A DNA stretch of 64,000 nt from Sanghuangporus weigelae (Eukaryota > Basidiomycota > Agaricomycetes > Hymenochaetales > Hymenochaetaceae): contig CP137328.1 of NCBI GenBank assembly GCA_033182465.1, positions 124,001 to 188,000 on the forward strand, given 5' to 3'. Numbering within the stretch: position 1 is the first letter of the stretch; every line of letters begins with the position of its first letter. The translations under genes were made by a program, and so were the position numbers. Shown here piece by piece: positions 522 to 53,642 of the stretch. Under the pieces are notes generated by a model. That model did not search any database. It saw only the letters and a list, made by a program, of their open reading frames with translations, and was not told the origin of the DNA.

Positions 522-1816
522 TTATCTGAGCAAGATAAGTGCTATCACTACCGGAACACCAGACAGCCGCCCGACGTCAAATGCACTACCCATCATGGCG
601 GCCTCAATAGCCCCAGATGAACCAAGTGAAAGTGCAGTCTTCTCTTGCTCAGTGAGCCCCTCCACTGCTTCAGCATATGCTGTTGGGTTCGCTCTGTACT
701 CATTCAAGAGTTTTGGGTGTAGTGCAAGGTCAACTGTCAGTTTTTTCAACGCATCCGAAGTATGAAAGGTCTTTAGTTGATTGGGAGCTGGATGCTTATC
801 GATCTTTCGAACCGCAGCTAATTCGTTAGAGCCGTAAGCAGGAGTGGTGGAAAAGTCTGGTCCAGCAAATGGCACTGGTGGGAAGAGGCCCCTCAGATGT
901 CTTCCTGAATCGGCAATTCCAAGCTTCTGCGCCATTGCGTCCGAAGGTTCAGCCACAGAGCGAGGAGGGACGTAAAATGTCGATGCTGGATTGATTTTCT
1001 TCACGACTTCGTCCTTGTGCAGTTCGGCAACAGTGAATGCCTCGATGGTTGACTCAGATTGTGGGAGGATAGCACCGATATAGTGTACAATCTTATGTTC
1101 GGCACCAAATACGTTCTCGAGGTAGTCTACGAGAAGGCTGAACTTGGCATTCTTAAGATTTCAAGATCAATAAATCGTCGGACATCTCAAGGGAAATAGA
1201 AAATGACCACTTACATCAAATACCATTGTATTGACGCCGACACTTCCGACTTGCCAGATAATATTGTGCATAGAGGGGTTCAATGGTTTGTCTCGAACGA
1301 GCAGCTCAGTGGCTTCGTATGATGCACATCCGTGCATAGCAGGCTCGAATCCAACATCAGCAATCAGATAATCCTCAGCAGAGATTCCTGGAAGCATGCA
1401 GGCCTTAAATCCCTCGTCTCGCGCTATAGCAATGGCCCTGTGAGAAGGAGCCACAAAGACACCAGGGTGCCCATAGAAGACACCGAGGACATCATGTCCT
1501 GCCCTGACGTCTTGTAGCATGACCTTTCTCATAGATCAGCTAGACAGGAAGGGAGAAAGAAGGAATCACTTACCTCGCACATCTGCACATATGAATCATA
1601 ACGACTCTTGTTGGTATCGTAGAATACGTACAAGTCAAAGCATTCTCCTTGAGCGTTGTCCCGAATGAATGTTTCTGTGATGGGATCGACGACGAGATAG
1701 TAGACTTTGGCGGCCTCTTTGATGTAAGAGAGTGCCTCGAGAGTGATATGCTTAACGCTAGCAATGCCCGTGCCAGCGATAGTCAAAGTACCTTTCTTCT
1801 CAGCAGATGTAGCCAT
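522..1816 (-). CDS. Borosin precursor: autocatalytic peptide alpha-N-methyltransferase fused to its own core peptide (OphMA-type)
   Basis: Three exons (1816-1574, 1523-1215, 1151-522) with 50- and 63-base GT...AG introns give 1,182 bases, an exact number of codons, and a 393-residue protein; OphMA has about 417. The N-terminal part is a SAM-dependent tetrapyrrole-methylase-fold enzyme. [10 protein letters not shown] near residue 11 and VFYGHPGVF at 96-104 match the omphalotin enzyme. Tyr66, Arg72, Tyr76 and Tyr98, which I recall as the catalytic or substrate-contact residues of OphMA, fall at the same numbers. A helical clasp-like region follows, including [12 protein letters not shown]. The last 12 residues, [12 protein letters not shown], are the hydrophobic core expected to be backbone N-methylated in trans within a dimer, then released and usually cyclised by a protease. 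The start is the first ATG and aligns with family N-termini. No prolyl oligopeptidase or P450 was recognised next to it. Confidence 0.93.
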
Positions 1817-14639: not shown

Positions 14640-16020
14640 ATGGCATCCTCTCAGCGTCCTATGCTTGAGGCTCAGGATGACAACGTCCCGCTGGAGCCGC
14701 CTGTCGTTCCCTTCGCTGGCAGCAGGACTCCCGCTTCTCCAGCCGGTAGTTTGCGCACAGTGACTCCGCCTCTCTCTGTCGCACATTCTTCGACAAACAA
14801 TTCCCTTTCCGGAAACTTCCTGCCGTCAAAATTTCCAGGCCCTCGAAGTCTGTACCAAAGGAAGGCCAAGGGAATCATGAATGCCTCAGTTCAGCCTAAG
14901 CAGGGTGGAGGCAGGGAAGCATTTGGGAGTAAAGAGGCTCGGATGCCAGAGGAGAAGGACGATGACTATGACGGTGTGGATTTTTCCCGTCGTAATTGGA
15001 AGGCTACCGCTCCGCTTCGATGGAATAGGTTCAAATGGACTCTATTCTGGACCAACTTCATAGTATGGGTCTCCTTTTATTCAGCCGGCCATTTTTCTCA
15101 TCTCTTAACAGGTCTCAGTCTATTCTCTCACGGCACTCATCATCTGTTTGCTCACCTGGCTCAACGTTTGGTCAAATGCGGACGTTATACGCGTTGGAAA
15201 CCGGACCTTGCTCGTCCTTTCAACCATCGCGTCTTCGTTCGGAATCCTGTCCTCTTTAGTCGGATCGGCGGGTATCCTCCTCAATAACCGTGGCTTCTTG
15301 GCACTGTATACAGTCATGCTATGGGTCACCTTCGCGTTCATCTGTGCGCCTGGTTATCTTGCCTACAAAACTCGTACATTCAACCTTGAAGGCAAGGTCA
15401 ATGCTCAGTGGAGTCAAACCCTTGGCGAAACAGGTCGGTTGAGGATACAAAACTCGCTCGGATGTTGTGGATATTTTAGCCCGTTCGTCGAGGCGACTAT
15501 CAGTCAACTATGCTATGCGCGCAGTGTGTTACCTGGATGCAAGGATCCGTATTTGAAGTTTGAGCGAATGACTCTAGGACGCTGGTACGGTATTGCTTTC
15601 GGCATCGTGCCCTTCCATCTATTGGCCATCCTCGCGGCGTTGCTTTGTTCGAACCACGTTACGTATCGGTTCGGGAAAGGAATGATGCCCAAAGCGTACC
15701 GTCTCGATATGAGCTCCATGGCTCTCATCATGGATCACTGGGCTAGGTACGCGTTCCCAAGACTTCAATATAGTCCGCAGGCTAAACTAAACTTTGCTTC
15801 ACATAGTCAACTTGCAGAGCAATACGGCGCGGGCGTTGCATCCGAGGTTATCTCACGTACCCGGTCGAATCTCCAGCTAGACTGCATACCGACTCTCGGT
15901 TATAATTCTGGTGCTCAAATGCCGGGTACGGCCTCTGGGATTCTTCCCGGGGCATCCTCGCACCGTGAGCAGGACGAGTTGTTTGAGGATGGTTCTACAC
16001 GGGAAATGAAGAAAAGTTGA
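14640..16020 (+). CDS. Fungal tetraspanin (Tsp2-like)
   Basis: Two exons (14640-15062, 15112-16020) separated by a 49-base GT...AG intron encode 443 residues. A long Ser/Pro-rich cytoplasmic N-terminus is followed by four membrane segments, near residues 133-160, 172-198, 201-226 and 299-321. The large loop between segments 3 and 4 carries the tetraspanin signature CCG at 259-261 (SLGCCGYFSPF) and further cysteines. Tetraspanins organise membrane proteins at the plasma membrane; fungal members act in penetration or wall integrity. The intron falls inside the first membrane segment. An upstream in-frame ATG at 14589 would add 17 residues. The extended tails make the protein longer than typical animal tetraspanins, as is usual in basidiomycetes. 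Confidence 0.85.
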
Positions 16021-27524: not shown

Positions 27525-29035
27525 TGAAAGGATCCGCTCAAAAACTCGCATCAGGATCGACACGATCAACAGATCTACACGATCAGCTTTCCAAACGCGA
27601 CCGGTAACCAAGCCAGCTATCAAGGCCCAAGCAATCGAGCGGCCTAAGCAACAGTAACCCGTTACCACCCGAGCGCTAGAAGCACCGAAGCGGATACGTA
27701 ATCCCGCTAACAGCTAACACCGCCGACCGCCTATTACCGCGGACTACCACTCTAACGCCGCCGACCAAGCAACCAGAGCGACCTCGATCAAAAGAAGCGA
27801 TCAAACTTCTTAGAAGTCCAGAAGCACAACTACTAAAGCCTAAACGCTAAAAGGCTAAAGGCTAATAAGGTTTATGGAGACCTCACTGGCATTTCAGCAC
27901 TGTCAAGTCTGTGCACGAGTTTACATGGTCCTTTATGAAGTATACTACTTAGTATGCACGGCAACGGTTGGTACGCGTGACTGTCACATCGAAACCGAGC
28001 GACACCTTCAGGATACAATGCATTCCAATCCACCAAGCCCAATAGTACCCAAGAAACGAGAGGAACTCACGATCACAACTCGGACCCCTCGAACTGCGAA
28101 CCCGATAACTTGGAGAATGATTGGATGGTATAGACCGGAGTTGCACACACCATGTCCAGCATCTACGATACAGGCAAACCTTTATTTACCGAGAGATGCG
28201 AACCTGGAAACCAAGCAATTACAACTCCTTATACAACGAAGGATATGGCGCTACATTCGCGATATACGATACGAAGGCAAAGCATGGCTAGTCACCAGAA
28301 CCCAGCAGAACCCACCAGCAGAGCTTATGCAGTTCATGATATGCCTTGGACCATACTCTACACCGACCCGACACCTTAACACTGACGTGCGAGTTATGCT
28401 TACCCTCGCTGGACCTCGAGATGAATTCCGAAGAATCACATACCGAGCAGCCTACATCGCTCCAAGAGCAAAGATGCCACTCAATGACGGCAATGACATC
28501 GTTATGGAGTACTGACAGTGGAGCATTCCATATCGGAGCACCACCTCTATTGTCTCAGTCAGCAACTCCAAAGAATTCTGTCATAGTGGAGACGACCTTA
28601 CAAAGATTGGAGCAAAGTGGAGCGAAGCGCAGCAGGATGACAAAGGAACAGATGTAATGGTGGAGGAAAGTGGAGTAAAGTGGAGACAGGATGAGTAAGA
28701 AATAGGACGGAAAATGGAATATCTGGGAGCATAAATAGCTGTAGGATTAGGCCCTCATTTCCCCATCTTTCGATCCTCTTAACACACTGGTGTAAAGCTT
28801 GCCCTACAGCGAGCTATTACTGTGTGCTTTGTACTATCACGCCTCTTGGAAATCCCAATCTGCTTTACTATTACCTCGTATCTGAAAGCATCCATAACTC
28901 GGACCGCGACTAGGAAGGCTAGTAAGGGACCGCGTGGTACAGCCAGACGTGGGTAGATAAGATCACCTCTGCACAACACACCGCTGCTTAGGCAAAAGGA
29001 TCAAACCGGTGTAACCCCGGGCCTACTCGCTAACA
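27525..29035 (+). repeat. Left LTR of the Ty3/gypsy element
   Basis: TG...CA ends. Contains a TATA-type box (ATAAATAG, 28731-28738) about 30 bases before a likely transcript start at 28765. Unusually long for a fungal LTR. Encodes an open frame (27874-28515) that is repeated in the right LTR. Confidence 0.92.
27874..28515 (+). CDS. Open frame inside the left LTR, 213 residues, unknown
   Basis: Upstream of the LTR promoter box, on the same strand as gag-pol. The predicted protein is basic and contains WRMIGWYRPELHTPC, LIQRRIWRYIRDIRYEGKAW and ELMQFMICLGPY. It shows no similarity I recognise. Its base and codon character (many CGA, ACC and CAA codons) matches the element's other frames. The same frame is at 38653-39294 in the right LTR. 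Confidence 0.45.
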   Translation: METSLAFQHCQVCARVYMVLYEVYYLVCTATVGTRDCHIETERHLQDTMHSNPPSPIVPKKREELTITTRTPRTANPITWRMIGWYRPELHTPCPASTIQANLYLPRDANLETKQLQLLIQRRIWRYIRDIRYEGKAWLVTRTQQNPPAELMQFMICLGPYSTPTRHLNTDVRVMLTLAGPRDEFRRITYRAAYIAPRAKMPLNDGNDIVMEY

Positions 29036-29049
29036 TTGGATCGAAAGAT
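28765..29049 (+). promoter_or_regulatory. Likely transcript start and self-priming primer-binding site
   Basis: The 12 bases at 29038-29049 (GGATCGAAAGAT), two bases after the LTR end, are the exact reverse complement of 28765-28776 (ATCTTTCGATCC), at the expected 5' end of the transcript about 30 bases after the TATA-type box. This is the arrangement used by Tf1-type chromoviruses, which prime from their own RNA instead of a tRNA. Confidence 0.6.
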
Positions 29050-29434
29050 CACTCGCTAGTTTTACCACCACCTCTCACGGGCAAGGTTCTTGGCTAGTGT
29101 TTTATCGAGGCGAGGACCGTCGACCTCAAGTCCCTATCGACGTCACTAGTTTCGAGACTAGTACCCATATCGAATCCTCAGGACAAGTGCACATCCTGGA
29201 GAACGACAAACCCGATTCACTTAAATCACATATCTACTATCATAACCCCTACAACGACGAAGTGTACCTAATAGCAAAGGCATCTGGTAGCCCTGCAGTT
29301 GGGAGCACGCAAACAACAACCACGAAAGTAGCAGCAGTCCCTTCCACTATTGCTACATTCGACGAGAAAGGAACTACTTGGTTAACAGCACCAAGGAACA
29401 ATAACCCTGAAGCATCAGGCGAGAAACGAAGTTC

Positions 29435-30469
29435 ATGAACCGATCAGGAAACGCCAACAACAGAAGTAACGGTCAGCGAACGAACGAACGGGCGAACAAT
29501 AATCAAACGAGGTTCACACCTAGATCCCTCGACGAACGAGTTCAACATATCACCAACAGGCTACGTAGTCTGGAAAGCGATCACGACATACTATACGCGA
29601 CAACGAACCACAGCATATTGTATCCACCAGTGATCAGAAGGCTACAAGAAAGGGTTGAAAGACTGGAAGAACGAACTGCAAACACGGGGCAGTCAAACAG
29701 TCTACCAACCGGAGCATACGCGACAGCAGTAGGAGATCGATTCGAAGCACTCGAAACAACTACTCGAAGAATTGGAGCACAGGTAGCAGCTCTAGAGAGA
29801 TATACTCTGGAATTGGATCGAGCAGCAGGGGCACTCAATCAACGGGTCATAGACGGAAACGGAGTACTTGACCGAGAGCTCAACGCTATCCGAAACAGGA
29901 TTACTGCTCAGGAACAACAACTACAGACAATCGAGACGAGAATCGGAGAGCTTAACAGGACAGCTCTAGATCAACCAAGGATTGTTCAAGACATCCATAA
30001 CCTGCGAGAAGCCCTACTCCAACTAGGACAAACAATCGAGTCGAGTCAACGCACCTACGCAGCTATACTCACATCGGTACAGACAACCGAAACTACCTCA
30101 AGGAACATACTCGAACACGCTCAACGAATTCGAGAAGTAGCTCAGGCAGCACAACGCTGGGAATACTTTCTACCAAGAGAGAGAGCCCAACAGGAACAGA
30201 GTTCTGACGAATCAGTGTCCTCAGACGAAGAAGCATCACGAAGGCCATTCTTACTCAGAACCCCACCTCGAACGGTTATCATCCAAGTACCAACAGTACC
30301 TGCAGTACCAGCAAGTGGTTCAGTAGCAACCCAAGCGCCAGAGAATCCACCACCACCATCCTATTCACCACCAGCAGTGCCCATAAGCACTTACGATCAT
30401 GTCGACAACCGACCAGAAGGTGCAAGCACTGGAGCAGCAACTACAGACTCTTCAGACACAACTCTCTAA
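29435..30469 (+). CDS. Extra frame before gag: coiled-coil protein of the element
   Basis: 344 residues. An Asn/Arg-rich start is followed by long heptad-rich segments (LEERTANTG..., LERYTLELDRAAGALNQRV, LQTIETRIGELNRTAL) and an acidic Ser stretch, and the protein ends in a Pro-rich tail with PPPPSYSPP. It overlaps the start of gag by 71 bases in another frame. It may be a structural or Gag-accessory protein. Typical chromoviruses lack such a frame. Confidence 0.55.
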   Translation: MNRSGNANNRSNGQRTNERANNNQTRFTPRSLDERVQHITNRLRSLESDHDILYATTNHSILYPPVIRRLQERVERLEERTANTGQSNSLPTGAYATAVGDRFEALETTTRRIGAQVAALERYTLELDRAAGALNQRVIDGNGVLDRELNAIRNRITAQEQQLQTIETRIGELNRTALDQPRIVQDIHNLREALLQLGQTIESSQRTYAAILTSVQTTETTSRNILEHAQRIREVAQAAQRWEYFLPRERAQQEQSSDESVSSDEEASRRPFLLRTPPRTVIIQVPTVPAVPASGSVATQAPENPPPPSYSPPAVPISTYDHVDNRPEGASTGAATTDSSDTTL

Positions 30470-31487
30470 ACACAGCATCAAGCTTCCGAAGTACTATGGC
30501 AAGCGAAGCGAAGATATTGATCTGTGGATTAGTCGATGTATCTCGAAGCTGGCACAGCATGGAGTCAAGGATGAGGAGGAGATAGCAAAGAGCCTATTCG
30601 CAGCACTCGAAGGCGATAGCTACGATTGGTTTGCAGAGAAGAATACCCTAACATCATTCGATGCCAATGGGAAACTGAAACTGGTACCTGCGATTATCGC
30701 TGCAACAAATGGAATGTTCGCATCACTCAAGGACATGCTGAACTGGATGAGAATCCGAGCAGGACATCCGATCATTGGAGAACAGGAAGCCCTATTCCAA
30801 CTACTATGCATCCAGCAGAAAGGAGCAAGCATTAGGGCGTACAACGACGAGTTCCGACGACTCAAAGCACGAGCACCAGACACGATGGATAAGCAGATGC
30901 TCAAGTACATCTATGTCAAAGGACTAGACATATGGGTCAAACGACGAGTCGAATCTGTACAACCCGACGCTTTCGAGAAGAACGACCTCGATGCATGGAT
31001 GGAATGGACAAGCAACCTAGCAAACTCTGATGCCAGGCAAAGGCTCATGGGTAGTCAAACATATACCCCAAGATTCAAATCGAATGGACAGTCATCTTTC
31101 CGACCACCAGTACAAACAACGAAACGAGATCCAGACGCCATGGATGTAGATGCACTCCGAGGCTTGCCGAAGAAGGGAGGCAAATGCTACAACTGTGAAA
31201 AGTCAGGACATTACGCAAAGGAGTGCAAGGCACCAAGGAAGCAAAAGGGTTCTTCCTCTAAGCGGCCGAAGAAGACTAATAGTGTAAAACGGAGGACGAT
31301 GACAACACGAACAATCGATTTCAAGGAAACATGTCCCGATCCACACTGCCGAAGGCCAGTCCACTACGACCATGTAGCATGGGCTAAAGGCGACGAATCA
31401 GCAGGATGGACTTGCAAGCATGACGAAGAATACCGAAACAACATTCGCAAATCCCTAGCAAGTAAAGAGCAACAGGGAAAAGATTAA
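30399..31487 (+). CDS. gag: Gag of the Ty3/gypsy element
   Basis: 362 residues. Retrotransposon Gag-type helical capsid region (KLPKYYGKRSEDIDLWISR... through ARQRL) followed by a CCHC zinc knuckle, CYNCEKSGHYAKEC, and a basic tail with a second Cys/His cluster (CPDPHCRRPVHYDH). It forms the virus-like particle that packages the element's RNA. Confidence 0.85.
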   Translation: MSTTDQKVQALEQQLQTLQTQLSKHSIKLPKYYGKRSEDIDLWISRCISKLAQHGVKDEEEIAKSLFAALEGDSYDWFAEKNTLTSFDANGKLKLVPAIIAATNGMFASLKDMLNWMRIRAGHPIIGEQEALFQLLCIQQKGASIRAYNDEFRRLKARAPDTMDKQMLKYIYVKGLDIWVKRRVESVQPDAFEKNDLDAWMEWTSNLANSDARQRLMGSQTYTPRFKSNGQSSFRPPVQTTKRDPDAMDVDALRGLPKKGGKCYNCEKSGHYAKECKAPRKQKGSSSKRPKKTNSVKRRTMTTRTIDFKETCPDPHCRRPVHYDHVAWAKGDESAGWTCKHDEEYRNNIRKSLASKEQQGKD

Positions 31488-31591
31488 GACCTCCATCGAA
31501 CGAGACTGCGCGATGTGAGTGTGACAAGGGTGACGAGAAAGGTTTCAACAACCAGTGTTTCAAACCTCCTGGGTTCAACCCCAGTGAAGCG

Positions 31592-34500
31592 ATGTACAAT
31601 AAGCGATTGCCAATACAAGCATTGCATCCCCGATTACCTATTCGAGTGAAGGTTGGAACAAAGACCCTAGCAGTCAAAGCGTTAATCGATTCCGGAGCTA
31701 CATGCAGCACGATACACCCCAACTTGGTACGACACTACAGCCTATTCAAAAAGAGGCTTGATCACCCTCGACCTTTGAATAATGCGGATGGAAGTCCCAA
31801 CCAAGGAGGAGCAATCACGCACGAGGTCTACACATTAATTTTTGATGGACCTAAACCGCAGCCACAAACGTTGGCAGTAGCAACCACAGGACAGGATCAA
31901 GTGATCCTAGGAATTGACTATTTGGCCAAAGTCAATCCCGAAATTGATTGGAAGAATCAAGTATGGAATCGGAATGGTAATTCGATACCATTCGAGCTCA
32001 ACGTCATACGAGCTACCAAGAAACGAAGGCACAGGAAGCGCAAACGGAAACGGCAAACGAAAGGCAAACCTGACAAGACAAGACCTAGGCATAACACGAA
32101 GCAACAGGCTCAGGACAGAGACAACTATCGACACTCTGGAGCACCAGGAATAATATTTGCGCCAAGGAGAGACAACAATGGACACTCTCACGAAACGAAG
32201 CCACAAGCGAAGCCGGAAACCAGACCAGCAACACCAAGACTGGAACAGGCAAAACAGACGCCAGAAGTGAAGAGTCCGAGCACGGAAAATATACCAGACT
32301 CTGCAACGAAACAGCCACAACAGGAAACGGCAAACAAGCATCATCGAGATGAGGAGGAAATAAACTACACTCCCAAGCGATGGAAGAAACAGGCACCACA
32401 AGGAACGAGTATAGTGCAACGACGACCAAGGCACATACCGAGACGGATGATCCCAGCACGGCAACTGTACCAGACATCCGAAGGTGAAACACAAGATGTA
32501 ACAGGCAAGCATAGCCTAGACGAACAGGAGGAAATAAACGACTCTCCGAAACGTTGGAAGAAACAACCACCACAGAAGATACACCCACTGAGGCAAAACA
32601 TGCCGGAAGATCAAGAACTCTGGCCATCACCAGAAGAAAACCCGGGCATGAAGTATAGGATACGACCACGAAAGACACGGTATCCAGAGAAGCCAGTGGC
32701 AGGCATTATACGACCGAGAACGGCATCGTTAATGCGAGGAGCTAGTCCCACACCGAAGCGTACAAGATGGGCAGACAACGAAAGCGATATCGAGATGCAA
32801 GACGAGCGGGAGACAACAGAAGACACTCCTATGCGCGATATAGAACCAGAAGACATTGAAAGTCTTAGGATGACCAACCAACCAGCTACCCTTACCAGAA
32901 AGGAAGAGCTCGCTGCAAAGCTAGAGCTAGACATCAATCGAAATTGGTCACCAAGGCAGCAGAACCAAGTCTCACAGCCTCTGAACAAAGCGAGTTCAGT
33001 ATCCCAGCAGTATTCTCAACAAAAGGCAGCTGCAGAAGGACTACTAGGAACACAGAAACGAGATTGGCGAAAACTCCTACCAAAGGAAATAGAAGACTAC
33101 GCAGATGTCTTTGATCCTGACAAGTCAAGAAGGTTACCCAAGCATACGAAATGGGATATGGCGATTAACCTCAAAGAAGGAGTACCATTACCAAAACCAA
33201 GGCCTATTATCAAGCTCACACGAGAAGAGCAGGCAGCACTCGATGCTTATGTCAAAGAGTTACTTGACAAAGGATGGATTGAAAAGGTTCAACCACATGA
33301 ACCATGTCCGGTAGCAGCACCAGTCTTCTTTGTAGGAAAGAAAGACGGAGGAGCACGAGCAGTAACCGATTACCGAGACATCAACGACACGACAGTATCA
33401 GATCCATACCCGATACCGATCATGAGTGTTCTCCCAGAGAAACTGGAGAAAGGAAAATTCTTCTTTACACTCGACATGCGATCAGGTTACAACAACCTGC
33501 GAATCCGAGAAGGAGACGAGTGGAAGGCAGCATTCCGAGTTGGCAATGCAGTCTATAAGCCAAAGGTCATGATGTTTGGAATGAAGAACTCACCTGCAGT
33601 ATTCCAACGATTCATGAATGACAACTTCGAATATTGGCTCAGGACAGAAGAAGCACTCAACTATTTGGACGACCTTATTGGTCAAGCACAAACTGAAGAA
33701 GAACATTGGAAACTCCTCAGGGCAATTCTACAGAAATGCCGAGAGCTCGACATTTACCTCAAAATCGAGAAATGTCACTTCCTCCAAACCCAGCTCGACT
33801 ACTTGGGATTTGTAGTAGGAACGAAAGGCATCCAGATGGATCCTTATAAGCTCAAAGCTATTCACGAATGGCCAGTGCCAAAGACGAAACGACAAGTTCG
33901 AAAGTTCCAAGGATTTTGTAACTTCTACCGAAGATTCATCAGGAACTATGCCGATACATTCGCACCTATTGGCGACCTTATCAAAAAGGATCGCAAGTTC
34001 ATATGGGCAGAGGCACAAGATAAGGCATTCGAAAGTATCAAGAAGGCATTCGAAACGGAAGTCGCATTGGCAATGCCAAAGCCAGACAAATCATACACAT
34101 TGGAAACCGACGCATCCGATGTAGCGATTGGTGCAGTCTTACAACAAGAAGACAACCAAGGAGAACTGAGACCTTTAGGTTTCATGTCGAAAACTCTAAC
34201 AAACACCCAACGAAACTATCCGACGCATGACAAAGAGATGCTAGCAATCATGGAAGCACTCAAGCATTGGAGACACCTATTGGAGGGAACCAAAGAACCA
34301 GTAACAATCCGAAGCGATCATGCAAACCTCCGATACTTCATGACAGCTCAGAATCTATCGAGACGTCAAGCAAGATGGGCACTAGAGTTATCACGATATA
34401 ACTTCAAGATTCTCCATTGGCCAGGCAAGAAGAACCAAGCTGACGAGCTATCACGACGATCCGACTATATGCCAGAGGACAAGGACAACTTAGGAGTTAC

Positions 34501-36070
34501 CTTGTTACCTCCTGATACGATCAAGCAACAAACATTGCGACGAACGGAGATCAACGGTCTATACAAGCTAGAAACTGAAATGGTCACTATCTCTGATCCT
34601 ATTATCCGAACGATCAAGAGGAACTACAATACCGAGGAGGCTAAGAAGGAAATTCAGGCGATCAAGCAGAGCAACGGCTACAGTTACAGGAACGGCTTGC
34701 ACTACGTAACCAATGCATTATATATCCCGCCGTCCGCCAACCTACGAGCGTTGCTAATCCGAAGGCGCCATGATCACAAACTTGCAGGCCACCCAGGAGC
34801 AGAAAAGACCATAGAGCTTGTAAAGCGATCATACTATTGGCCGAAGATGGAAGAAATGATCCGAGCATATACCGCAACCTGCGACATATGTCAGCGTGCA
34901 AAACCGATTCGACAGTTTCGAAATCCGCCGCTCCAACCGTTGGAGGCACCACATCAACCATGGGAAACCATAACCTGTGACCTGATTACCGACTTACCAG
35001 TCAGCAATGAAGGCTACAGTGCGATACTCGTTATAGTGGACAAACTCACTAAAATGGGGAAGTTCATTCCTTGCCAAGGAATACCCAATGCTAAGCAGTT
35101 GGCACGTTTGTTCCGCCAACATGTCTTCAAATACTACGGGGCCCCTAAACGAGTAATCTCCGACCGAGGTAGCAACTTCACCGCGCAATTCCTCAAGGAG
35201 TTCTGCAGACTCATCGATGTCGATTGGAAAACTAGTACAGCGTATCATCCACAAACCGATGGTCAAACCGAGCGACTAAATCAAGAGCTTGAACAGTACT
35301 TACGCTGCTATGTGTCCTACCGACAAACAGATTGGGCAGAGTACATCGATATAGCAGAATTCGCCTACAACAACAGGAAGCACAGTACTACACATCAGTC
35401 ACCATTCTATACACTGTATGGATGGCATCCTCACCTGGACGTTGCGGAGACCGGTGATTCAAACGTCCCAGAAGCAATAAATCACCTAGAGGAGCTTCGA
35501 CAAGTACAGCAAGAAGCCTATAATTCGATTAGGCAAGCGAATGAGGCAATGAAGCTTTATGCAGACCTGCATCGAGGCAAACTGCCAGAGTACAAGCCGG
35601 GAGACGAAGTGTTACTAGACATGAGGAATCTCAGTCGATTGGAACCAACGAAGAAACTTGCAATGAAATGGGCAGGGCCTTATAAAGTCGAGAAGGCAGT
35701 CGGACAAGTGTCATTCAGATTACGCTTACCCGAAACCCTTCCGATCCACCCAGTGTTTCATGCGAGTCTTCTCAGGCCTTACAAACGAAAGGAATACCCT
35801 GGAAGACCCACTTTGGATGAACCACCACCTATTGAAGTGGAGGGAGAAGCAGAGTACGAAGTGGAGACAATTCATAATACGAGACGTCATCGGAGCAAGG
35901 TCCATTACCTTATCCAATGGAAAGGATACCAGGAGCGAACATGGGAGCCACTTGACAACCTCAAGAACTCCTATCAAATGATCGAAGCATTCCATAAAAA
36001 GTATCCTCAGGCAATCCAGCCATCGAACCTTAACCAATGGATCGCCGCACGAAAACGAGTTAGGCAATAG
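31592..36070 (+). CDS. pol: Pol polyprotein with chromodomain
   Basis: 1,492 residues, one open frame starting about 100 bases after gag. Order: aspartic protease (ALIDSGATCSTI, near residue 30); a long basic, Pro/Gln-rich linker; reverse transcriptase with YLDD; RNase H (TLETDASDVAIGAVLQQ); integrase with an HHCC zinc part (HDHKLAGHPG...CDICQRAK) and the DDE core (VISDRGSNFTAQF, TDGQTERLNQELEQ); and a C-terminal chromodomain (VHYLIQWKGYQERTWEP). The chromodomain usually guides integration to particular chromatin. The linker between protease and reverse transcriptase, of more than 300 residues, is unusually long. Confidence 0.93.
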   Translation: MYNKRLPIQALHPRLPIRVKVGTKTLAVKALIDSGATCSTIHPNLVRHYSLFKKRLDHPRPLNNADGSPNQGGAITHEVYTLIFDGPKPQPQTLAVATTGQDQVILGIDYLAKVNPEIDWKNQVWNRNGNSIPFELNVIRATKKRRHRKRKRKRQTKGKPDKTRPRHNTKQQAQDRDNYRHSGAPGIIFAPRRDNNGHSHETKPQAKPETRPATPRLEQAKQTPEVKSPSTENIPDSATKQPQQETANKHHRDEEEINYTPKRWKKQAPQGTSIVQRRPRHIPRRMIPARQLYQTSEGETQDVTGKHSLDEQEEINDSPKRWKKQPPQKIHPLRQNMPEDQELWPSPEENPGMKYRIRPRKTRYPEKPVAGIIRPRTASLMRGASPTPKRTRWADNESDIEMQDERETTEDTPMRDIEPEDIESLRMTNQPATLTRKEELAAKLELDINRNWSPRQQNQVSQPLNKASSVSQQYSQQKAAAEGLLGTQKRDWRKLLPKEIEDYADVFDPDKSRRLPKHTKWDMAINLKEGVPLPKPRPIIKLTREEQAALDAYVKELLDKGWIEKVQPHEPCPVAAPVFFVGKKDGGARAVTDYRDINDTTVSDPYPIPIMSVLPEKLEKGKFFFTLDMRSGYNNLRIREGDEWKAAFRVGNAVYKPKVMMFGMKNSPAVFQRFMNDNFEYWLRTEEALNYLDDLIGQAQTEEEHWKLLRAILQKCRELDIYLKIEKCHFLQTQLDYLGFVVGTKGIQMDPYKLKAIHEWPVPKTKRQVRKFQGFCNFYRRFIRNYADTFAPIGDLIKKDRKFIWAEAQDKAFESIKKAFETEVALAMPKPDKSYTLETDASDVAIGAVLQQEDNQGELRPLGFMSKTLTNTQRNYPTHDKEMLAIMEALKHWRHLLEGTKEPVTIRSDHANLRYFMTAQNLSRRQARWALELSRYNFKILHWPGKKNQADELSRRSDYMPEDKDNLGVTLLPPDTIKQQTLRRTEINGLYKLETEMVTISDPIIRTIKRNYNTEEAKKEIQAIKQSNGYSYRNGLHYVTNALYIPPSANLRALLIRRRHDHKLAGHPGAEKTIELVKRSYYWPKMEEMIRAYTATCDICQRAKPIRQFRNPPLQPLEAPHQPWETITCDLITDLPVSNEGYSAILVIVDKLTKMGKFIPCQGIPNAKQLARLFRQHVFKYYGAPKRVISDRGSNFTAQFLKEFCRLIDVDWKTSTAYHPQTDGQTERLNQELEQYLRCYVSYRQTDWAEYIDIAEFAYNNRKHSTTHQSPFYTLYGWHPHLDVAETGDSNVPEAINHLEELRQVQQEAYNSIRQANEAMKLYADLHRGKLPEYKPGDEVLLDMRNLSRLEPTKKLAMKWAGPYKVEKAVGQVSFRLRLPETLPIHPVFHASLLRPYKRKEYPGRPTLDEPPPIEVEGEAEYEVETIHNTRRHRSKVHYLIQWKGYQERTWEPLDNLKNSYQMIEAFHKKYPQAIQPSNLNQWIAARKRVRQ

Positions 36071-36324
36071 TTGCATCACATGCACTCCACCCGATGGAGC
36101 CGCTTATGGATCCACAATAGAGACGATGAGTAAGGTCCCCAACGACCTTACCAAGCGATGACATCAATGTGGCACACCAAAGCGAGAGCAGAGATAGAAG
36201 AATTAGGCAAGACATCGCCGACATACCAACAAGATGGTATAAAACATGGAGAACTTCGAGCTGAACGAACAACAACTCGAATCTCAACAGCTCTACTTCA
36301 CTGCAGACGAACCACTACTCAGCT

Positions 36325-37323
36325 ATGCCTATCTTCGACGAGCTACATGCATTCTGTCAACCAGAAGATGCACCAGAATGGACATTTGCACTTAGGCCAC
36401 CGACCGAACGTTATCAATGGCCACAGCTGTGCAACCGATTCAACGAAGAGAACTACGAAGACGAAATCGTACCCCTATGCCCAGGAAAGTACTTCGACGA
36501 TCTATTTGACAAGTGGAACGCAGTCCACCACAACCGAGACGAAATACCCCATCTTATGATGGCGAATCACTCAGACGAGTGGTTATTCAAACTCAGTAAC
36601 CCTCGAGACGCAGCATTACGCCGACTCAATGATGATGCATTTCTAACCTACGCGATCGAACTCGAAACACAAGCATTACATCGAGGCAAGATCGACTTTA
36701 GGCACGAAACAACATACAAGAACATCATGGGCATCTATCATTCGGCAATTCAAATTTGCGCCTACCGACGAGACATGACTACCGCAATTCTTAACCGAAT
36801 GATGCGATGGAGTCACTATCATCCGATGAGCATCGATGCAATGAAGTACATTATATACATAGCCGACCAGACGGGCTTCTATGCATCCCACACCATGCAG
36901 TTCATGACGGTACTCAACATGACAAAGTATTACGAAGGAACGAGATACCGAACGGTTATTGAAGCGAGGAACTCCACTACGGACGAGGTACCACTCGACA
37001 ACATCGAACACCACGTAGTCGAAGGCAAAGAGGTTAACTACGACCCTCATTACCTTATGGAACTCAACAACCGAGAGGAAGAAGCCAGAGAAAAACTACA
37101 GGCTACACGACACCCATTGCTGGAAGATCTGATGATCTCAGTCTACCAGTACCCGAACGAACTCTACCAACCGGACGAGATGCTTACTATGTCAGAACAG
37201 GAGGACATGTACATACACTCCGACGATACAGAGTCAAGTGAAGAAGGTGAAAGCAGGGAACTATATACCCCAGCGAACTCGGCCCAGACTACACCTGAGG
37301 CTGAAGAATCCGAAGATTTGTAA
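36325..37323 (+). CDS. Extra frame after pol: 332 residues, unknown
   Basis: An acidic, Tyr- and His-rich protein with no membrane segment. Motifs include FDELHAFCQPEDAPEWTF, WPQLCNRFNEENYEDEI and a C-terminal acidic Ser/Glu stretch (SDDTESSEEGESRELYTP). It sits where env-like genes occur but lacks signal peptide and membrane anchor. Composition matches the rest of the element. Function unknown. Confidence 0.55.
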   Translation: MPIFDELHAFCQPEDAPEWTFALRPPTERYQWPQLCNRFNEENYEDEIVPLCPGKYFDDLFDKWNAVHHNRDEIPHLMMANHSDEWLFKLSNPRDAALRRLNDDAFLTYAIELETQALHRGKIDFRHETTYKNIMGIYHSAIQICAYRRDMTTAILNRMMRWSHYHPMSIDAMKYIIYIADQTGFYASHTMQFMTVLNMTKYYEGTRYRTVIEARNSTTDEVPLDNIEHHVVEGKEVNYDPHYLMELNNREEEAREKLQATRHPLLEDLMISVYQYPNELYQPDEMLTMSEQEDMYIHSDDTESSEEGESRELYTPANSAQTTPEAEESEDL

Positions 37324-38025
37324 ACAACTCTTCTTTTATGCAACCCCTTTCCCATATCGTGACCCGACATGGTCAATTATGCATTTCATTCTTACCTTAT
37401 GATATTTATGGTCACATCCGACCAAATTATGCTTTATGCACCTCTTTATTTCACGCTTATTCGGCCAACCAGCACAAATGAAGCACTATGCAGAAGTGTC
37501 AAAGAACCTACAAGGGCCTAGACATTTTGTATATTGTTTTATTGTGCCGGCTCCGAATTAGCAGATTATGCCTACCTTTTATTATCCTCTATGCAACGGA
37601 GAAGCCAAAAGTTTACGTGAAGTCACTCCCTTGCATCATGCTAGGATGTGCCTTCACGCTGAAAGGCACTCCAATTACACTCTTTCTTCGAAAAACTCCA
37701 TTTGGGGGTTGAAGAGCCGTAGGTAAACACCTGGAACTTCACTCCCAAATTGGTATAAAACTTATTCATTAACGACTTTATGATTTCTTTCTTATCACTT
37801 TCAATTGCGTCATATTCTTTACATGATGCACATTTCATATTCATATCCCTTCCCACCACCCTTTACAAGTCAATGTCTTCCCAGACACCCTTTTCACGAC
37901 GTTCCTGCGAAGCAATACCTGCATTTTCGACGACTGGATCGATATCCTCAACGTCATAACCGAGCGCGAGGTGAACTCGAAGCGCGACAGTAGTAACATC
38001 GCGCTGGAACGATTGCATTTCGAAG

Positions 38026-38271
38026 TCAGCCTCCTAGAGGATGATTAACAACTCGAAACGGCACAGAGCATGCATCACTTACCTGAGCACGCCTCTTACG
38101 CTCCAAAATCCAATGATTTATGCCGAAAATCGCGACAATAACGACAAAAACAGTAACAGCAGCGGCGACTTTCGACATTTTGGGAGCAGAGATGATGATG
38201 GTTTGATAGCAAGAATCAACCATCACTAGGCGACCCTTTATCCGAGCTTTCTCACGGATTAGGATGAACAT
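38026..38271 (-). CDS. Antisense open frame with one membrane segment, near the right LTR
   Basis: An 81-codon frame on the opposite strand with a strong hydrophobic helix (VAAAVTVFVVIVAIFGI) followed by a basic cluster (ERKRRAQ). A second open antisense stretch lies just downstream at about 38,030-37,868. Together with the long gap (37,324-38,290) that the main frames do not use, this hints at an antisense gene carried by the element. No family is recognised. Confidence 0.35.
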   Translation of the reverse strand: MFILIREKARIKGRLVMVDSCYQTIIISAPKMSKVAAAVTVFVVIVAIFGINHWILERKRRAQVSDACSVPFRVVNHPLGG

Positions 38272-38290
38272 TTCTCCGAAAGTTCATCTT

Positions 38291-38303
38291 AGGGGGGGTG
38301 TAG
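38291..38303 (+). other. Polypurine tract before the right LTR
   Basis: AGGGGGGGTG immediately before the right LTR, the usual plus-strand primer of an LTR retrotransposon. Confidence 0.6.
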
Positions 38304-39814
38304 TGAAAGGATCCGCTCAAAAACTCGCATCAGGATCGACACGATCAACAGATCTACACGATCAGCTTTCCAAACGCGACCGGTAACCAAGCCAGCTATC
38401 AAGGCCCAAGCAATCGAGCGGCCTAAGCAACAGTAACCCGTTACCACCCGAGCGCTAGAAGCACCGAAGCGGATACGTAATCCCGCTAACAGCTAACACC
38501 GCCGACCGCCTATTACCGCGGACTACCACTCTAACGCCGCCGACCAAGCAACCAGAGCGACCTCGATCAAAAGAAGCGATCAAACTTCTTAGAAGTCCAG
38601 AAGCACAACTACTAAAGCCTAAACGCTAAAAGGCTAAAGGCTAATAAGGTTTATGGAGACCTCACTGGCATTTCAGCACTGTCAAGTCTGTGCACGAGTT
38701 TACATGGTCCTTTATGAAGTATACTACTTAGTATGCACGGCAACGGTTGGTACGCGTGACTGTCACATCGAAACCGAGCGACACCTTCAGGATACAATGC
38801 ATTCCAATCCACCAAGCCCAATAGTACCCAAGAAACGAGAGGAACTCACGATCACAACTCGGACCCCTCGAACTGCGAACCCGATAACTTGGAGAATGAT
38901 TGGATGGTATAGACCGGAGTTGCACACACCATGTCCAGCATCTACGATACAGGCAAACCTTTATTTACCGAGAGATGCGAACCTGGAAACCAAGCAATTA
39001 CAACTCCTTATACAACGAAGGATATGGCGCTACATTCGCGATATACGATACGAAGGCAAAGCATGGCTAGTCACCAGAACCCAGCAGAACCCACCAGCAG
39101 AGCTTATGCAGTTCATGATATGCCTTGGACCATACTCTACACCGACCCGACACCTTAACACTGACGTGCGAGTTATGCTTACCCTCGCTGGACCTCGAGA
39201 TGAATTCCGAAGAATCACATACCGAGCAGCCTACATCGCTCCAAGAGCAAAGATGCCACTCAATGACGGCAATGACATCGTTATGGAGTACTGACAGTGG
39301 AGCATTCCATATCGGAGCACCACCTCTATTGTCTCAGTCAGCAACTCCAAAGAATTCTGTCATAGTGGAGACGACCTTACAAAGATTGGAGCAAAGTGGA
39401 GCGAAGCGCAGCAGGATGACAAAGGAACAGATGTAATGGTGGAGGAAAGTGGAGTAAAGTGGAGACAGGATGAGTAAGAAATAGGACGGAAAATGGAATA
39501 TCTGGGAGCATAAATAGCTGTAGGATTAGGCCCTCATTTCCCCATCTTTCGATCCTCTTAACACACTGGTGTAAAGCTTGCCCTACAGCGAGCTATTACT
39601 GTGTGCTTTGTACTATCACGCCTCTTGGAAATCCCAATCTGCTTTACTATTACCTCGTATCTGAAAGCATCCATAACTCGGACCGCGACTAGGAAGGCTA
39701 GTAAGGGACCGCGTGGTACAGCCAGACGTGGGTAGATAAGATCACCTCTGCACAACACACCGCTGCTTAGGCAAAAGGATCAAACCGGTGTAACCCCGGG
39801 CCTACTCGCTAACA
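38304..39814 (+). repeat. Right LTR of the Ty3/gypsy element
   Basis: Same length and ends as the left LTR, offset by 10,779 bases. All translated stretches are identical to the left LTR. It is followed directly by ACAAT, the target duplication. Confidence 0.92.
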
Positions 39815-49734: not shown

Positions 49735-52700
49735 ATGGGCGTACATTCAAGTCAAGTAGGTATAGGAAAGGGGAAGAAATCGAATGGGCTATCGAAGAGT
49801 GAGTGATTGCCACCGATACTCTGTCTCAAAGCAAAATAAATAACAGAATTGCAGAAAATTCAGGTCAAATTCGAAACTCAGCGTCTGTCTCATACAACGT
49901 CGACTCTTTCTTCCGAACAAGAAAACCGTTTTTCCTGATTTTGACGTGAAGGAACTACGTGTAAATACTATCTTTGGCATTCCTCCCCTTGGATCTTCAA
50001 GAGCTCGCATCACTGTAGAAAGCAAGGGCTCCGGACCGGTATGGACTATCTGAACTCGGGCGATTTGAGGACTGACCATCCGAATTTCTAGTTTGTCGAT
50101 GTCATCCGGCGTCTTCTAGAGGAATCACAACAACGATTGTCTACCATGAAAGTATTTTTGGAGAAACTTGGGAAGGCTTGCGAGGTTCTGAACCGGATCA
50201 CTCGCTATGTCGAACCCATGGCCGATGTACGTCAATTACAAGTTGATTATTATGAGAGCATCATGGCTCATTCTCCAGCAGATTCATCCTGCTGTCAGCG
50301 CTGCCGTTTCTGCCGTCACTCTGTTGTGTGAAGTTCGCGATTCAGCCTCAAGTCTTATGGACGTACAACTGCTAATCATTTATTTTCAGGTGTGCAAAAG
50401 GCAACATGAAGTCCATGCAGCAGCAACGAGTCTCATTTCGGATATATCTTCTTTCTTACCCTTCGCAGATCTCCCTGAGGGCCGCTTGCAGAGCACGATT
50501 GTCGAAAGAACGGCCTCTGACATACTCACGCATTTTGAGAAAGTTATTCGATCGATAATCAAGTATTCATCGGAGACGACTCTAGGCATGTTGCACCATC
50601 AAATGTCCTGTACTATTAACGTGAAATCTGATTCGGCTAACCTGTCAGGTGATCTACTTGGGGATCGAATGGGAGAAATAGACTCTTATAGAGAGGAGTT
50701 CGGGAAACTTAAGGAAACCTTCCAATGGTCCATCAGGGTCGAGACATGGAAAACTGCACTGAAGATCGGTATGATGTCCTCACTTTCATCCCTACCACTT
50801 ACGCATATTTTTGTAGATTCGAGGACTGAGCATCTCATCCTGTCTCAGCTTCATCCAGCTCTAAATGCGTTTTACGACGCGGAGAAGTTGTGCCTCGAGA
50901 ATACGAGAAGGGATGTACTTCTCAAAATCAAGGAATGGTCTTCTCGAGGATCCGGTCTCTTCTGGTTGTATGGAGTAGAAGGCACCGGAAAAACAACCAT
51001 ATCTCACACGGTGGCTCGTTCCCTCAACGAGGAAGATCGTCTTGCGGCTTGCTTCTTCTGGGACAAGAATGACCGAGATCGTCGACAAGCGGAGAGGCTT
51101 CTCCCGACGCTGTCCTATCAACTAGCAAAATGGCATGTTGATTATCGCGCTGCAGTTCTCGATGTCCTTGAAAGCCATGACGAGCGAGCCATTCACACAG
51201 GATTAGGATCACAATTTGAAATTCTCTTCAAGAACCCTTTCAGTAAGCTAACCCAAAGCAAATTCTCGGAGCCTCGACCTCCTCGTGAGCAACATTTGGT
51301 CATCGTGCTCGATGGTTTGGACGAGTCGTGCGATTCTATACCTGCGAGGCGAGCTCTAGCTGGTTTTGTGAGAGATCTTTCGACTCTGGTCCCTTGGCTT
51401 AAAGTGTTCATCAGCAGTAGAAGACCACCGGAACTTGAAGATTGCTTCGTGGTCGACGACTCAAGTCACTTGGGCCTCGACTATCCACCTTACGATCTAC
51501 GAGGAGAGATAGAGGGGCTCGTAGCACAATCGTCTATTGAACAGCAAGTCGATGGGAATACCTTCGCCTGCGACATACTCTATAAACGATTTATCAACAA
51601 CGTGATAGACTCACAGCGTCATGACGTCGACACGATGCCCCTAGTTCGAAACGTACTCGCAGTCGCTTCTTGCAGCGCTTTGAACAGGCCGTTGACCGAG
51701 AATGCCCTCGTTCATTTCTTGAGACCCTTTCATCCCGAGCTTACCGCCGACGCGTTCCACGATAGCATCACTTCCCTGAAACCCATATTATTCGCAAACG
51801 CGGAATGCACGCTTCATCTGATTTTCCCGTTGAAATCCTTCCTTGGGTTCATGTCCAACCGCGTCAGGTCCGGATGGATTTCTGTTGACGTCGGCTCAAT
51901 CAATATCGCAATTGCACGCCGATGCCTCGATACGATGCGAATCGGTCTCAAGTTCAACATTTGCGACCTAGAGTCGTCGTACCTTGAGAATAAGGCTGTA
52001 TCGGACTTAGCGTGCAGGGTCAAGGAGAACATCCCAGAAAAACTGCAATATAGCTGCTCGTACTGGATGGAACACATTGCACAGGGGGGAGATGTGCACG
52101 TCTTAAAAGGCTTCGTGATAGACCTGCTTGGTTCTCCCAGGTCTTTATATTGGATCGAGGTGTTAAGCTTACTATCTGATCTGGAGGTGGGGAAAGACAC
52201 GCTTCTGAAGTGTCGAGAGTTGTTCCAGGTGAGAAGTGTACTGAACGAATTCATAAGGTTTTCTCCCTAACAAAACAACTCGCTAGGATAATTCAGAAAT
52301 TATAACAGCTGCTACAGAATTATCAGCTTTTCTCGACGATTTTCACCACGCCGTAAAAACGAGTACGCCGCATGTCTACGTATCTGCATTATCGTGGAGA
52401 ATCGAGAATTCCTTCATTCATAAGTGTCTTGGATCCGACTTCCGATGTCACTTCCCCTTACTTTCCGAGGATTCCGCGACATCTACCGAGCCACGGGACA
52501 CATTTTGGGTAGTCCGTGACACTAAGCGAGATTGGAATGCGGTCAGATTTGCTAATGCCGTTACGCACTCGCCTAATAGAAAGAGAATAGCGTCCGGTCG
52601 TGAAGATGGAACGATTAGGATTTGGGACGCGCAGACTGGCTCTCCAATAGGAAATCCCAAGAAGGGACACGAGTCCTTCGTCCGTGCGGTCGCGTATTCT

Positions 52701-53642
52701 CCGGATGGTACAAAACTGATGTCTGGTTCAGATGATGGAGTCTTGCGTATTTGGGATGCGGACGGTTTGGACCCATTAGGAGAACCACCCAAGGTCAATC
52801 CAGGCTATATCTCAGCACTGCAATTCTCTCCGGATGGAATGAGAGTTGCCTCAGCGGGCGCAGCGTTGAGAATTTGGGATGCGCAGAGTGGGGAGACAGT
52901 TTGCGAGCCTTGGTCTGTGACCACCGGTAACAAGCGATACATCATTAATTGTTTGCGATACTCTGCGGATGGCAGTAAAATCGTTGTTGGCTGCCAAGAC
53001 AGAACCGTCAGAGTCTGTGACGCATCAGATTGCCGCCAGATTGGAAATCCCTTCCGTGGTCACGACGGTCCAGTGACAGCCGTTTCGTTCTTCTCAGACG
53101 GAAATCGCATCGTTTCTGCATCAGACAGTGGAGATGTCATTCTATGGAATTGTAGTACCGGCGATCGCATCTGTGCTACTTTGAAAGGCCACTCAACGAG
53201 CGTCACCTCTCTCGAGTTCTCTTTGGATGGACAAAATATTATTTCAGGTTCCCCGGACGGGACGCTGATAATTTGGGATGCGCATAGTGGTGATCAGAAG
53301 CAACTAGTTAGATGCGGAGAAGAGTTTTGGGACCCGGAAATGCATTGCTACATGACTATTCCTACCTGGTGGCCTGCAATGATAGCTCCTACGTCGAAGT
53401 CTGTCCTCCCCTCATTTCGACCTGAACCTGGACCATTGGTATTGGAAGACGATGGATGGATACGGACTGCAGATGGAAGTTTGATATTATGGGTTCCTTT
53501 GGATTATCGCCCTTTTCTGCAACATCTCAGCAAGTCTCGCACGGATAAAGGATCAGAACAGGGAAGGAGGCTTGATTGGAGATATATCTATCGTGGACAG
53601 AGTTGGGTCTCTATATATGAACGAACCCACATTACTTTCTGA
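49735..53642 (+). CDS. NACHT-WD40 NLR-type receptor
   Basis: Five exons, approximately 49735-49799, 49857-50038, 50092-50226, 50282-52228 and 52287-53642, give about 1,230 residues. The N-terminal region is the helical type that precedes NACHT in mushroom NLRs (FVDVIRRLLEESQQRL, IHPAVSAAVSAVTLLCE). The NACHT ATPase has Walker A GVEGTGKTT and Walker B LVIVLDGLDES. The C-terminus has about six WD40 repeats (GTIRIWDAQTG, DGVLRIWDADG, GTLIIWDAHSG) and the usual ending DGWIRTADGSLILWVP. Fungal NLRs are implicated in non-self recognition and programmed cell death. Exon 1 boundaries are the least certain. A 27-base stretch at about 50,360-50,390 looks intron-like but is in frame and was kept. Confidence 0.85.

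Follow-up and report, generated by a model that had tools for sequence, protein, structure and literature searches.

One frame on the minus strand of the 64,000-nucleotide stretch of DNA analysed here (the window; positions 124001–188000 of contig C11 in a 33.87-Mb, 13-contig genome) raises the question of whether it encodes an enzyme that methylates its own C-terminal tail and, if so, what peptide that tail might become. The preliminary description had read it as an omphalotin-type borosin precursor, an N-methyltransferase fused to its own substrate, and as the source of an undescribed N-methylated peptide.

Gene structure

The 393-residue frame is intact and runs from 1816 to 522 (minus strand, as are all the features below), and our splice check returned exactly the three exons and 393 residues that had been claimed. 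Exon 1 (1574..1816) carries the start codon and the first part of the α-N-methyltransferase domain with Y63, Y66, R72 and Y76, as judged from the splice check, the TP_methylase match and alignment. It is followed by a 50-nt GTAAGT...AG intron (1524..1573), excision of which yields the frame of a public S. weigelae protein (P0001). The centre of the domain with Y98, S129 and Q172 lies in exon 2 (1215..1523; splice check and alignment), and after a second GTAAGT...AG intron of 63 nt (1152..1214; splice check), exon 3 (522..1151) provides the end of the domain, the clasp helices (residues about 292–370), the linker, the core and the stop codon, as placed by the splice check and the structure model.

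It might be argued that the 3' end of this gene model is wrong, with an extra intron removing the hydrophobic end so that the true tail differs. The 3' end does allow 23 GT–AG pairs with a branch-like motif, and one candidate intron (551–509) would swap VVIALILLR for KIAR. However, none of the 23 has a GTRNGT donor, whereas both accepted introns start with GTAAGT, and these candidates were rejected on that ground; furthermore, P0001 has the same end unspliced, and the two core changes relative to this record leave the core hydrophobic. We regard a mispredicted 3' end as highly improbable.

Enzyme domain and class

An OphMA-like SAM-dependent α-N-methyltransferase domain was found by Pfam (TP_methylase alone, residues 10–207), PDB sequence search, phmmer and fold search. 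The PDB search returned 25 distinct sequences led by MroMA (E 2e-132), dbOphM and OphMA, then the split enzyme SonM, so that characterised borosin methyltransferases were matched, a comparison which the preliminary description had suggested as a check. The phmmer search gave E values of 6.2e-258 to the S. weigelae protein and 2.7e-158 to pocMA (8000 candidates scored, 832 at E ≤ 0.001, of which the best 120 were considered). Of these 120 we took 70, and the 49 with a length of 370 aa or more were aligned with the window protein to give a set of 50; P0008 and P0054, with odd C-termini, were removed from the set by hand.

Residues Y63, Y66, R72, Y76 and Y98 line up with their counterparts in dbOphMA, and gymMA1 provides the bridge by which dbOphMA can in turn be aligned with OphMA. 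According to PDB titles, Y63, Y66, R72, Y76, Y98 and W400 are the residues mutated in OphA, and our naming of the catalytic residues of OphMA follows these titles in part. We did not find Tyr66, Arg72 and the like by name in PMC10947093, nor Y98 and R72 in PMC8429565. Conservation is near-complete across the 50 aligned proteins, window protein included (R72 and S129 50/50; Y66, Y98 and Q172 49/50; Y76 48/50), and in a second alignment of 39 sequences R72, Y98, S129 and Q172 were invariant, with Y66 and Y76 at 90% or above. The earlier placement of Tyr66, Arg72, Tyr76 and Tyr98 at OphMA positions is thus borne out by the dbOphMA alignment and the PDB mutant titles, and the mismatch of catalytic residues that could have told against a borosin was not seen.

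Behind the enzyme is a fused clasp (the borosin-binding domain), which aligns to MroMA through residue 370. An AlphaFold monomer model from a 39-row alignment (mean pLDDT 83.9, pTM 0.80) has helices throughout 292–370 and a tail (373–393) with pLDDT below 50. Among the 50 PDB matches shown in the fold search, ranks 1–42 are MroMA, OphA/OphMA and dbOphMA chains and ranks 43–50 are SonM. It should be noted that the TM scores against the MroMA, OphA/OphMA and dbOphMA chains are 0.52–0.60 with an rmsd of about 19 Å, and that the docking of the clasp is not reproduced in the model; we read these values as probably reflecting a different clasp–enzyme placement, since the model shows one chain of what would be an interlocked dimer.

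A precursor in which an α-N-methyltransferase that retains its catalytic residues is fused to a clasp and a hydrophobic end is very probably a borosin, and the earlier claim of an enzyme fused to its presumed substrate holds to the extent that all three elements sit in one frame, with the role of the tail as substrate remaining conjectural. Support comes from identity to pocMA (62%) and MroMA1 (57%), catalytic columns conserved in 48–50 of the 50 proteins, and fold-search ranks 1–42. On this sequence evidence we are confident, short of certainty, that the gene encodes a fused borosin precursor of type I, probably from a Sanghuangporus, which would methylate its own tail. The label 'omphalotin-type' proved too narrow, as the gene has no follower and no S9 match nearby, and its position in our tree is apart from the gymMA1 branch.

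C-terminal linker and predicted core

The clasp is followed in the same protein by a 14-residue linker (residues 371–384; 549..590, counted from the spliced frame) and a hydrophobic segment, the predicted core VVIALILLR (residues 385–393; 522..548 with the stop codon), at which the spliced frame ends without a follower. The start of the core at V385 is suggested by analogy with GFP-W400 of OphMA; the core cannot be recognised from its sequence, and its standing as a methylation substrate is putative. The register before the core resembles NGFP-WVIVVGV of OphMA and NNLP-VVAVVGV of gymMA1, with the alignment of the tails unsure, and comparison with the OphMA segment GFP-WVIVVGV agrees with the earlier statement that this hydrophobic core is unlike that of omphalotin.

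The six reading frames of 94 kb contain 1303 stop-ended frames with a length of 40 aa or more, and only two of them, one being the borosin gene, end with at least eight of nine residues from the set AVILMF. The tail thus exceeds by far the hydrophobicity expected by chance, and this count and the phmmer E values together show that the gene is no chance pattern. A nine-residue stretch with at least eight such residues occurs within the last 45 residues of 17 of the 49 relatives, and a clasp Met is present in 47 of the 50 rows, followed in most rows by a linker and then a hydrophobic end. We note that several public borosin records (P0005, P0010–P0012, P0013, P0016 and P0045) have C-termini that appear mispredicted or truncated, and any core taken from an annotation of this kind should therefore be verified.

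The tail is short, with 23 residues after M370 in both the window and S. weigelae proteins against a median of 38 across the 50 proteins. By manual count, the linker from Met to core has 14 residues in the window protein, against 17 for gymMA1 and 24 for OphMA, and it is therefore not certain that it could reach into the partner's active site. This may indicate a decaying borosin in which the enzyme is intact and the shortened linker has left the tail no longer methylated or released, and the terminal Arg seen in these two proteins alone among the 50, together with the lack of an S9 peptidase match nearby, would fit such decay. In contrast, no difference from S. weigelae is present in the 264 methyltransferase-domain residues of the tree alignment, the frame is open with the catalytic residues retained, and the core changes between the two proteins stay hydrophobic. 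Tails of 24 residues or fewer are also found in P0023 and P0028 (six of the 50 rows in all, including the window protein, S. weigelae, P0013 and P0016, although the ends of the last two look truncated or misannotated). We consider decay very unlikely, and favour a precursor that would methylate its own tail.

Proposed maturation of the tail

OphMA acts as a pair of interlocked subunits, the tail of one being methylated by the other, as described in the available parts of PMC11285071 and PMC8429565. By analogy, the window protein would form an interlocked homodimer in which the tail of each subunit enters the other's active site, and several backbone amides of VVIALILLR may be N-methylated from the N- towards the C-terminus (candidates V385–L392); the available part of PMC11285071 describes 11 fungal precursors methylated mainly in hydrophobic cores and in this direction. 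A general host protease might then release the methylated tail.

The product could be a short linear N-methylated peptide, Arg-ended or trimmed, rather than an omphalotin-like ring; this is the least certain step, and we put its chances at about half. A linear product is expected because a follower is lacking, the core contains neither Gly nor Pro, and an S9 peptidase gene was not found nearby, and it is favoured because A388 is the sole OphP-type P1 residue in the core. According to the available part of PMC12235650, the P1 preference of the omphalotin peptidase OphP is for N-methyl-Gly, then Pro, then N-methyl-Ala; OphP binds the methylated core rather than the follower, to which it is largely indifferent, and it is inactive on whole OphMA, so that another protease must cut first.

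The S9 search (all candidates scored) found ten matches in the genome, none of them within 190 kb of the borosin gene and the nearest about 195 kb away at C11:320780. All three S9_N matches (again with all candidates scored) fall at C4:2248580–2250205 and represent one gene, beside which there is an S9 match at C4:2251260. This sole prolyl-oligopeptidase-like enzyme might cut and cyclise the methylated tail with N-methyl-Ala388 as the cutting residue, a reading compatible with the P1 residues that OphP takes and the small part played by the follower. However, the C4 gene is unlinked and the only one found, and hence is probably a housekeeping gene; the related GmPOPB did not process multiply methylated Oph-5 in the available part of PMC12235650, and a ring with A388 as its last residue would have very few members if linker residues were not included. 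Such cyclisation seems to us very unlikely, if marginally less so than decay of the tail, and general proteolysis to a linear peptide is the route we favour.

Trypsin should release the tail as one peptide, which makes the prediction testable in one expression experiment, and production of the peptide, should it occur, would reveal how a borosin can mature without the omphalotin peptidase.

Relationships among borosins

The closest relative is the S. weigelae protein ACEPAI_1443 (P0001; 393 aa, 99% identical), a public record annotated as a hypothetical protein and not named as a borosin, which ends GVPVVMAIILLR and has the linker and core register in common with the window protein. This near-identity makes the source organism probably a Sanghuangporus, and perhaps S. 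weigelae. The two differ at five residues (269, 350, 366, 387 and 389), two of which lie in the core, so that the S. weigelae core is VVMAIILLR, with two of the 12 end residues changed and both still hydrophobic. The five differences are all confined to the last 125 residues (0/264 vs 5/129, Fisher p 0.0036, with the cut at 264 set by the domain boundary chosen for the tree), and this pattern is only suggestive of a constrained enzyme and a freer substrate, as it comes from five changes seen in protein sequences. Next is ACEPAG_3325 of S. baumii (P0002), with 87% identity across 94% of the query, in which the tail DPSGAASGREMFAATVVTTILIIIAV is longer and unlike that of the window protein.

Amongst more distant homologs, pocMA (P0003; 'type I borosin cyclic peptide precursor' in UniRef) shares the fused enzyme, clasp and hydrophobic end and is 62% identical over its whole length, but has a longer linker and a different C-terminal end; a literature search for pocMA by name returned medical or veterinary titles only. 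MroMA1 of Mycena rosella, which has a solved structure (PDB 7TWK), is without a long follower, like the window protein, but differs in its longer linker and its end, FIIIYIVQG. OphMA and dbOphMA have in common with it the domain order, the catalytic residues and a Pro just before the core, but are only about 45% identical and carry a 12-residue core, a follower (SVMSTE, SVVSSA) and the clustered peptidase OphP (available parts of PMC7878506 and PMC12235650).

A tree of 25 methyltransferase domains, in which OphMA was not a row, grouped the window and S. weigelae proteins with S. baumii as their sister (100/100), and this group next joined two Fomitiporia proteins (94/97, less firm). The next nearest by path was pocMA, in a position which is not firm, and the gymMA1 branch was separate (99/96 with Lentinula aciculospora). 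The seven rows labelled Hymenochaetales did not form one group and require at least two changes, with a second S. baumii borosin found among Agaricomycete proteins. This second borosin (P0021) is located on another branch beside a Pleurotus pulmonarius protein (94/94, not a starred fork). Searches of the genome with the window protein and with P0021 matched the borosin locus only, revealing neither a second copy nor a P0021 counterpart, and the latter may reflect either loss here or gain in S. baumii. Two further places in the genome, on C1 and C6, were matched by PF00590, which we presume to be housekeeping methylases and rejected as second borosins.

These comparisons lead us to a speculative proposal, which we think is more probably wrong than right: that in Sanghuangporus borosins the enzyme is near-fixed and the tail changes from one close species to the next (S. 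baumii AATVVTTILIIIAV, S. weigelae VVMAIILLR and here VVIALILLR), and that the short-linker form leads to a stand-alone, Arg-capped, linear N-methylated peptide without a dedicated protease or cyclase. If true, a single gene would suffice to make a backbone-methylated peptide. The gene itself matters in that it is intact, is the only borosin found in the genome, and comes from a genus of wood-decay fungi ('Sanghuang') used as medicine.

The kind of gene is already known, and it is the core VVIALILLR that seems undescribed in the literature searched. The earlier suggestion of an undescribed N-methylated peptide therefore stands in part: the core was not met in that literature, but a near-identical S. 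weigelae protein is already public, and methylation of the tail is our prediction. No N-methylated peptide from Sanghuangporus and no N-methylated cyclic peptide from Hymenochaetales were found in the literature searched, and Quijano et al. 2019, which is said to survey over 50 fungal borosins, could include this gene or its relatives in its lists. Few mature fungal borosins are known, according to the available parts of PMC11395268 and PMC9233826. The S. weigelae genome paper counts 19 clusters, three of them 'other molecules' of a type unspecified in the part available, and does not use the word RiPP. It is one of two Sanghuangporus genome surveys that, in the parts available, name terpene, polyketide, NRPS and unspecified 'other' clusters; in the second survey, RiPP was seen where DeepBGC scored a terpene cluster.

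Genomic surroundings

In 94 kb, 36 open frames reach a length of 150 aa or more, and we scanned 20 of them with Pfam (19 from the window and one upstream), an approach which intron-rich genes escape. Fourteen had no family and six did: a marginal tetraspanin, retrotransposon gag and pol, a kinase piece, and an NPHP3_N/WD40 pair. None of the 112 P450 matches in the genome was on C11 (92 of the 220 candidates scored).

A cyclophilin match is located about 4 kb from the borosin gene (C11:119839–120444), and between the two is a phosphatase-like gene recognised by eye, of which one frame (L006:6929–8068) was scanned and has no Pfam family. We tried the cyclophilin as a cyclosporin-like self-resistance gene and rejected it, as there is no sign of a recent duplicate among the 17 PF00160 matches in the genome (the best other match is 55% identical to it over 209 columns, with shorter pieces at 58–75% over 16–51 residues).

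The window also contains a Ty3/Gypsy-like LTR retrotransposon with a chromodomain (27525–39814). Its LTRs (27525–29035 and 38304–39814) are identical over 1511 bp, begin with TG and end with CA, and the element has ACAAT flanking both sides; the identical LTRs and these flanks indicate a recent insertion. Two successive plus-strand frames at 50192–53639 with NPHP3_N (NACHT-like) and WD40 repeats make up a fungal NLR-like gene, and the tetraspanin frame (15109–16017) scored 32.6 bits against a Pfam cut-off of 32.1.
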